From the NCBI GenBank assembly GCA_002869895.2, contig NEWP02000029.1, positions 18,207-72,715 on the forward strand: DNA of 54,509 nt. Direction: 5' to 3'. This document shows positions 30,658 to 32,930 of the stretch, piece by piece; the stretch's first letter is position 1; the number at the start of each line of letters is the position of its first letter. Below the pieces are notes generated by a model that saw only the letters and a list, made by a program, of their open reading frames with translations, was not told where the DNA came from and did not search any database. Source of the stretch: Nitrospira sp. CG24E (lineage in GTDB: Bacteria > Nitrospirota > Nitrospiria > Nitrospirales > Nitrospiraceae). Position numbers and translations under genes: made by a program.

Positions 30658-31740
30658 TTAGAAGGATTGGATAATGCCGCCGCCGAGGACGCGATCGTCT
30701 CTATAGAGGACCGCGGACTGTCCTGGACTCAAGGCGCGTTGTGGCTCGTGGAAGAAAATGCGAAGGGCGCACTCTGAAAGAGGTTGGAGGGTTGCAGGCA
30801 TGGCGGGTGTGGCGTAACGGACCTTGACCATGACCTCTGTTGAGGCAGCGAGCAGTGAGGAGTCGAAGAGATTCAGATCTGAGAGGCCACACTCACTGCG
30901 ACGTAGTGATTCCTCTGCGCCAAGGACGACCCTATTGGTGGTCGGTTGTACTTGCTGTACATAGAGTCTGCGGCCAGTCGCGATACCGAGACCTCGTCGT
31001 TGGCCCGGGGTATAAAAAGCGATTCCCTCATGGTCGCCTAAATATCGGCCTTCAGGGTCCACGAATGCCCCTGGTTTTTTGGCAGCGGGCGCTTCCCTCT
31101 CGATGAAGGTTCGATAATCGCCGTGGCTCACGAAGCAGATTTCTTGGCTTTCCTTCAATTCGTCTGGTGGAAGTCCCAGGGCTTCCGCTTCTTTCCACAC
31201 TTCCGTCTTCTGCATGTCCCCTACAGGAAAGAGAAGACGAGCCAGCCATGATTGGCGTAGACGATAGAGGAAGTAGCTTTGATCTTTCTTGGAATCGGCC
31301 GCTCGATGAAGGGTCGGTAACCCTTGGGATTTCCCGAGGCGAACATAGTGGCCTGTGGCGACGAAATCGATCCCGCGAGTGTCCGCAAGTTCGATGAGGC
31401 CACGCAGTTTGACTCGTTCATTGCACCGGACGCAGGGATTGGGCGTTGTGCCTTCGAGATAGCCGGCAATGAAGTCGTCGATGACCCCGGCGCGGAAGGT
31501 TTCTCTGGTGTCGACTACCTCATGCGGGATCTTGAGGGTCTGCGCGACATACCGTGCAATGCCGACCTTGCAGCACCCACGCTCTTCCCAACGCTTCGAA
31601 GGCGCGACCGTTTCGTCTTCGTGCTCCCATACCTGAAGGGTCACGCCATGAACGTCGTAGCCCTGGCGAACCAGAAGCGCTGCTGCGACAGAGCTATCCA
31701 CTCCACCGCTCATACCGAGAAGAACCGTAGGACGAGTCAT
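30658..31740 (-). CDS. mnmA: tRNA-specific 2-thiouridylase
   Basis: A 360-residue PP-loop enzyme that places sulfur on uridine 34 of tRNA Lys, Glu and Gln. The ATP pyrophosphatase motif SGGVDSS is at residues 11-17. The catalytic cysteine pair appears in NPCVRCNERVK near 102 and EICFVSHGDYR near 205. The C-terminal barrel is complete. No good ribosome-binding site is visible. Just upstream lies a decayed copy of its own start. Two other tRNA-34 modification genes (mnmE, mnmG) lie about 6 kb away. Confidence 0.95.
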   Translation of the reverse strand: MTRPTVLLGMSGGVDSSVAAALLVRQGYDVHGVTLQVWEHEDETVAPSKRWEERGCCKVGIARYVAQTLKIPHEVVDTRETFRAGVIDDFIAGYLEGTTPNPCVRCNERVKLRGLIELADTRGIDFVATGHYVRLGKSQGLPTLHRAADSKKDQSYFLYRLRQSWLARLLFPVGDMQKTEVWKEAEALGLPPDELKESQEICFVSHGDYRTFIEREAPAAKKPGAFVDPEGRYLGDHEGIAFYTPGQRRGLGIATGRRLYVQQVQPTTNRVVLGAEESLRRSECGLSDLNLFDSSLLAASTEVMVKVRYATPAMPATLQPLSECALRIFFHEPQRALSPGQSAVLYRDDRVLGGGIIQSF

Positions 31741-31779
31741 ACAGTCGCTATTGTACTGAAGGAGAGAGAGAAAGGGCTA

Positions 31780-31865
31780 GAGGGTTGAATGGGTTGCGGT
31801 GATAGAGCTCTCCATATCACCACCGATGCCTAGCAAGACCGCAGGCTGAACCATACAGTGCTGCC
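31780..31865 (-). pseudogene. Decayed tandem duplicate of the mnmA 5' end
   Basis: On the minus strand an ATG at 31854 opens a 25-codon frame whose first residues (MVQPAVLLGIGGDMESSI) parallel the start of MnmA (MTRPTVLLGMSGGVDSSV), about half identical. The DNA aligns without gaps at a fixed offset of 114 bases; I counted roughly two thirds identity over 60-70 bases. The PP-loop residues are partly lost (SGGVDSS to GGDMESS) and the frame then stops. It is best read as an old partial duplication. It could still act as an upstream reading frame. Confidence 0.65.
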
Positions 31866-31909
31866 GGGCAGTGGAGATAGGAAAGGGACTAGTAGACTGT
31901 TACGTAAGG

Positions 31910-32344
31910 CTAATGGGCAGACGCAACGAGCCCGGGAGAAACATCGAGCGTGAGCGAACGTTCGTTGCTCCAGTGATGTGGTCCCATGTCGCACATGCCA
32001 TGGAAATGCGAACCTTCTTCGATCGCAATGACCGGGGTCCGGATATCGCCTACGAGGACACCGGGCTTTAGTATGTGTATCTTTTCAAGGGCAGTGACGG
32101 TGCCATTTATTTTGCCGCTATTCATGACGATTCCAGCGGAGACGATGCCCTCGATGACCGCATGCTCTCCGACGATTAATGTTCCGGTTGTATGGATCTC
32201 GCCCTCGACGCGTCCATCAACTCGAAGGGTGCCGTCAAGACTGACGATACCTCTGAACTCTGCGCCTTTGCCGAGAAGGGTAAAATGCTCACCGTTCTGC
32301 TCAACTTGCTGGCCCCGTTCTTTTGTTCCCCACATGATTGCCAT
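31910..32344 (-). CDS. Bactofilin, copy 1
   Basis: A 144-residue bactofilin-family cytoskeletal protein that forms nucleotide-free filaments. The central beta-helix (about 25-115) shows regular G-x-V/I repeats (FRGIVSLDGTLRVDGRVEG, then GEIHTTGTLIVGEHAVIEG in parts). Flanking tails are short. The start at 32344 has AGGAGG six bases upstream. A second ATG three codons on is possible. Paired with copy 2, 88 bases away. Confidence 0.88.
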   Translation of the reverse strand: MAIMWGTKERGQQVEQNGEHFTLLGKGAEFRGIVSLDGTLRVDGRVEGEIHTTGTLIVGEHAVIEGIVSAGIVMNSGKINGTVTALEKIHILKPGVLVGDIRTPVIAIEEGSHFHGMCDMGPHHWSNERSLTLDVSPGLVASAH

Positions 32345-32432: not shown

Positions 32433-32930
32433 CTAGCCATTGACTCGCTTCAGGCCCGGGGGCATGATCATTCCGACGGGATGGAGAGAGACCTCCCTCG
32501 GAAGTTCGCGCACGCCATGAGCCATTTCAAGCGCGCCGTTAAATAGCACTCCATCTTCCATTGAAAGGACCGGCGTCTTCACGCTCCCATTCAACACGGC
32601 CGGGGCTCGGAGCTTTACACACTCCTTTGCAATGACATCCCCGGTGATCTTTCCTTTACACACGACGGTTCCTGCAGTAATTTTTGCCTGGATGACAGCC
32701 TCCTCACCAATTAGTAGGACGCCGTCTGTATGAATTTCCCCGTCGAGAAATCCATCAATTCTCACCGTGCCACTGTAGGAAATCGTGCCTTTGAATTCGA
32801 CTCCCTTTCCTACAAAGGCACTAATATCCCCAGCCCCTTCGGCAATCGTTGAGTTGGCGGTAACCATAATGACCTCTTCGCCTTTCTGCTCGCTAGAGCT
32901 ATTCTCTTCTTTTTTGTCTTGTCCCCACAT
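32433..32930 (-). CDS. Bactofilin, copy 2
   Basis: A 165-residue paralogue of copy 1. The beta-helix core runs about 35-135 (VEFKGTISYSGTVRIDGFLDG; EGEIHTDGVLLIGEEAV-like turns in parts), with a polar N-terminal tail (KKEENSSSEQKGEE) and a longer C-terminal tail. AGGAGA precedes the ATG. It lies downstream of parB on the same strand, after a 159-base gap without a gene. Confidence 0.88.
   Translation of the reverse strand: MWGQDKKEENSSSEQKGEEVIMVTANSTIAEGAGDISAFVGKGVEFKGTISYSGTVRIDGFLDGEIHTDGVLLIGEEAVIQAKITAGTVVCKGKITGDVIAKECVKLRAPAVLNGSVKTPVLSMEDGVLFNGALEMAHGVRELPREVSLHPVGMIMPPGLKRVNG

Follow-up and report, generated by a model that had tools for sequence, protein, structure and literature searches.

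Gene order and the repeated start of mnmA

The window analyzed here is a stretch of 54,509 bases from a Nitrospira relative. On its minus strand, a bactofilin gene (31910-32344) is followed by a gap of 169 nt and then by mnmA (30658-31740), the only match to mnmA that we found in the window genome (G000) at E 0.001. A bactofilin match also accompanies mnmA at 28 of the 30 mnmA loci found in the genus. Two neighboring bactofilin genes (31910-32344 and 32433-32930, about 40% identical) lie ahead of mnmA in the window, and the ORFs upstream of this pair have translations that we take to resemble parB and parA. Scans of the whole window with Rfam (gathering score) and for tRNAs returned no matches. 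The features relevant to this study are given below, all on the minus strand. The sister genome to which they refer (G015) appears to be JABFSG010000032.1, Nitrospiraceae bacterium WB-IL-04 (L051).

31910-32344, minus strand: bactofilin gene (PF04519), the upstream flank common to relatives
31855-31909, minus strand: outer (first) copy of a promoter-like block, decayed, adjoining the bactofilin gene (17/54 sites differ between window and sister genomes; profile)
31863-31868, minus strand: where the -10 element of the outer copy once stood, now reading CCCGGC in the window genome and CACAGT in the sister genome (best profile placements)
31787-31862, minus strand: stretch with significant identity to 31674-31749 (local alignment, score 52)
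31777-31854, minus strand: ghost frame of 25 codons plus TAG, MVQPAVLLGIGGDMESSITATHSTL, with ATG at 31854 and stop at 31777-31779 (ORF; alignable to roughly the first 20 codons of mnmA)
31741-31784, minus strand: intact inner (second) copy of this block, adjoining mnmA (2/44 sites differ between the two genomes; profile)
31750-31755, minus strand: predicted -10 element TACAAT, 9 nt 5' of the mnmA start codon (conserved position in relatives)
30658-31740, minus strand: mnmA, intact, encoding a tRNA 2-thiouridylase of 360 aa (ORF; PF03054, PF20259 and PF20258 above cut-off), the source of the duplicated start

A preliminary description of this DNA had proposed that the 25-codon frame is a ghost copy of the mnmA start, aligned along its whole length at an offset of 114 bases. 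The repeat is real. Positions 31780-31860 are identical, ungapped, to the sequence 114 bases lower at 50 of 81 sites, far above chance, as the next best placement of this piece on either strand of the window reached 38 (mean 20.3, SD 4.0). However, the match covers about 20 codons rather than all 25, and the last codons align poorly and extend into the inner promoter copy. The ghost is co-directional and in frame with mnmA at this offset, and it encodes a peptide, MVQPAVLLGIGGDMESSITATHSTL, similar to the beginning of MnmA, MTRPTVLLGMSGGVDSSVAA. Local alignment confirmed ACTGTATG at both start codons. The PP-loop is degraded, as had also been described: the motif SGGVDSS is absent from the ghosts of both genomes, which instead read IGGDMESS and ISGQIDGF. 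While the ghost derives from the N-terminal PP-loop codons of the MnmA family (PF03054), it is too short and degraded to match it, and a Pfam search of the 25-aa peptide returned no families at E up to 10.

Several comparisons set this similarity against chance. The highest local-alignment score among random window pieces (up to 2,000) was 33, compared to 52 for the ghost stretch. Aligned to the first 100 nt of mnmA, the ghost scored 41. Dinucleotide shuffling of the ghost side gave this value once in 20,000 trials (Gumbel p ~2e-5), and the score of the ghost peptide was reached in none of 20,000 shuffles. The mnmA start matched its own upstream DNA best among the 85 window ORFs of at least 120 aa (41 vs. 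32 for the next), and in 80 related loci none of the 497 ORFs with a length of 150 aa or more reached 41 (three reached 36); each of these sets certainly contains some ORFs that are not genes. In a self-scan of upstream regions, one control window among all loci also scored 41, so the DNA score of the ghost is strong but not unique by itself. What carries the case for the repeat is the constant offset, together with the peptide and the evidence from the sister.

The duplicated unit, its distribution and its divergence

mnmA was present in 30 of the 32 genus genomes searched and had a readable start in 29 of them. The bactofilin gene and mnmA are 169 nt apart in the window genome and 168 nt apart in its sister. 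Among the other 27 genomes, the gap is 55-56 nt in 14, 48 nt in two, 34, 22 and 63 nt in one each, 95-96 nt in four, 235 and 289 nt in one each, and 100 nt in L008, where the bactofilin match is weak; it was not measurable in L016. The gaps of 55-56 nt hold one promoter-like block and are too short for a ghost, and the six genomes with gaps of 95-96, 235 or 289 nt contain an insertion of another kind. Of the 29 genomes whose mnmA start could be read, the window genome and its sister were the only two in which we detected the ghost; they form one clade in the mnmA tree (support 100/100). The preliminary description had suggested examining mnmA upstream regions of related species, and the sister carries the repeat. 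Subtracting the common gap from that of the window genome (169 minus 56) gives a duplicated unit of about 113 nt.

The sister’s ghost was recognized from its gap length and its alignment with the window genome. It passed shuffle tests (24 of 20,000 for DNA and 0 of 20,000 for protein). In the self-scan, which took in 112 upstream regions, 92 of them distinct in their last 60 nt, the window genome scored 41 and the next region (L087) 31, while the sister scored 28, against 30 reached by its own control. As L027 likewise scored 28, the self-scan alone would miss a ghost as decayed as the sister’s.

The duplicated unit also includes a promoter-like block, a point beyond the preliminary description. 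Most genus leaders carry a block of the form CCCTCTAGCCCTTT ... AGTACAATAGC immediately 5' of mnmA. Among 92 distinct upstream regions, some of them from other genera of the family, 63 have the hexamer TACAAT ending 6-10 nt 5' of the start codon, with a spacer of exactly 9 nt in 45 of these 63; 28 of the 92 have no such hexamer. Scanning 31600-32000 for consensus sigma-70 promoters yielded none (0.2 expected), so the promoter prediction follows from the conserved place of TACAAT, not from a -35 match. The usual spacing between the -10 element and the transcription start of sigma-70 promoters would put the start of the mnmA transcript about 3 nt 5' of the ATG, and the position of TACAAT suggests that mnmA mRNA in Nitrospira is probably leaderless or nearly so. 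Near-leaderless starts do not appear to be a general habit here: only 3 of 107 window ORFs had any of six -10-like hexamers at 6-10 nt, in a set (at least 100 aa, both strands) that includes many ORFs that are surely not genes.

The two copies of the block differ in preservation. We scored both with a profile derived from 25 other leaders of the genus, whose own in-sample scores range over 36.6-61.4. The inner copy is intact, scoring 38.7 in the window genome and 39.1 in its sister. The outer copy of the window genome scored 4.9, far over the background (-60.6, SD 13.7) and under all 25 genus leaders. This result bears on a further suggestion of the preliminary description, that the upstream stretch, purine-rich when read on the plus strand, is repeated as well: the profile supports this repetition, but it is weak taken by itself, with 425 of 20,000 shuffles scoring as well. 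In the sister, the outer copy scored -20.1 and other places in the locus scored higher; it was recognized only through alignment with the window genome (37/54 sites identical), although its CACAGT still agrees with TACAAT at four of six positions. When three relatives were aligned with the gap, their bactofilin-side bases fell on the left end of the outer copy, and the inner copy was matched by their promoter block.

Divergence between the two genomes followed the same division. The outer leader differs at 17/54 sites (JC 0.41), the ghost part at 14/70 (JC 0.23, all 14 differences within the first 60) and the inner leader at 2/44 (JC 0.05), compared to 36/190 fourfold sites in mnmA (JC 0.22) and 22/72 in the bactofilin gene. 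The outer copy has thus diverged at about the fourfold-site rate; these distances suggest that it drifts like weakly constrained sites, while the inner copy is held.

Origin and likely state of the outer copy

The explanation we favor, to which we assign a probability of roughly 0.85, is a single tandem duplication before the window genome and its sister diverged, after which the inner copy would have gone on working while the outer copy decayed and became inert. A unit of about 113 nt, made up of the mnmA promoter-like block and the first 60-66 nt or so of the gene, would have been copied in tandem once. Because the two genomes form a sister clade and both carry the ghost, the simplest history places this event on their shared branch. 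The copy still joined to the whole gene would have retained both jobs, promoter and start. The copy on the bactofilin side, released from selection, would then have lost its promoter block and PP-loop codons to decay. Since the predicted promoter lies directly against the start codon, a duplication of this size would have copied promoter and start as one cassette.

Partial tandem gene duplication can leave a 5' pseudogene fragment. The present case likewise consists of a tandem unit with one apparently functional and one decaying copy, but differs in that the unit holds the promoter-like block together with the start codon, so that the presumed working block is the inner copy. In titles and the opening parts of abstracts, we found no published case of such a duplication of promoter and start. 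The locus may offer a readable natural case of promoter hand-over, with the inner copy as the promoter now in use. Its regulatory importance is likely to be small; the event seems ordinary and lineage-specific, and it warns against taking ghost starts for leader frames.

It is improbable, though the best of the alternatives, that the ghost is the remnant of a full second mnmA, arisen in tandem or received from a relative and later deleted down to its first 20 or so codons. The ghost is slightly nearer to the mnmA starts of certain other genus members (up to 43/60) than to its own (40/60), and its divergence leans to third positions. That nearness, however, is also expected from an old duplication with later change in the real gene. 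A larger second mnmA requires two events where one suffices, and the match stops after about 20 codons, where the inner promoter copy begins.

An upstream leader ORF, or leader peptide, is a short co-directional frame ahead of a gene, and the ghost shares these properties. The preliminary description had offered two options, an inert copy or a leader frame tuning mnmA translation. Translation of the ghost on mRNA reading through from the bactofilin gene would be one form of the latter, and we consider it very unlikely. In its favor, both ghosts retain an ATG and an open frame with the same stop, preceded by identical final codons, and the frame is in register with mnmA. An open frame, however, is expected by chance: in simple neutral simulations, for which the numbers of changes were assumed, the frames of the two genomes both remained open in 73% of runs, and remained open with both ATGs kept in 19%. 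Purifying selection is not clear either, since 14 of 60 nt differ, distributed 5/2/7 over the three codon positions (0/0/5 for the first 60 nt of mnmA itself), with dN 0.23 and dS 0.43. This lean to third positions is mild and weak constraint could give the same; 14 differences decide nothing, and constraint tests on two genomes have little power.

RNA folding was no more favorable to a leader frame. The gap RNA of the window genome folded a little more stably than its shuffles (z -2.1, 4 of 200 as good), while that of the sister did not (z +1.2, 180 of 200 as good); the predicted structures differ, with no fold common to both genomes. No terminator-like site was found at 31600-32000. Moreover, a promoter-like block sits between the ghost and mnmA, downstream of the former, so we infer that the main transcript should not contain the ghost frame. 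Unlike a leader ORF, the ghost is also not conserved: it went undetected in all 27 of the remaining genus genomes whose mnmA start could be read. The leader-frame reading is thus unsupported by codon-position differences, neutral simulation, folding in both species or promoter position. Of the two options offered earlier, the inert copy is the better supported, given an outer copy that has diverged at about the rate of fourfold sites.

We give a similarly slim chance to the outer copy having been kept as a new control element, with its short frame or its promoter-like DNA still affecting mnmA. Were this so, the outer copy could catch ribosomes or RNA polymerase running on from the bactofilin gene, and one Nitrospira lineage would have turned a duplicated cassette of promoter and start to regulatory use. 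Finally, that the resemblance is due to chance or to an assembly artifact is scarcely credible: although it is short, 62% identical and weak in the sister alone, chance is rejected by the window-wide placement, the shuffles and the comparison with 497 ORFs, and an assembly error would not give two separate genomes whose ghosts differ at 14 of 70 sites.

Insertions at the mnmA promoter-like block in other Nitrospira

A CTAG within the mnmA promoter block is a recurrent insertion point in other Nitrospira. At this CTAG, two genomes (G002 and G031) have an inserted element whose ends are CCCGCATTATTCATGA-like, and four others (G003, G008, G009 and G017) carry a hairpin of about 37 nt made of the same CCCGCATTATTCATGA-like ends at the same site. 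MITE-like elements thus lie at or adjoining the promoter-block CTAG in six genus genomes. We found no evidence for or against a link between the duplication and these insertions at the same place.

Upstream of mnmA at L013, L015, L017, L019, L020 and L023, we observed MITE-like elements whose ends read CCCGCATTNTTCAYGA. The end motif occurred 16-48 times per genome in all ten genus genomes searched for it (of 32), compared to none for the reversed control. The outer flank at ten such loci was CTAG or CTAA in five and TTAA in two. CTAG stands on both sides of the element at L013, and CTAA on both sides at L141. From these flanks, the element looks like part of a MITE family that duplicates 4 bases of its target. 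At six further loci (L102, L109, L115, L119, L122 and L128), the gap between the bactofilin gene and mnmA is 237-271 nt and the extra sequence ends at (C)TAGCCC, possibly representing an older insertion of a related element.
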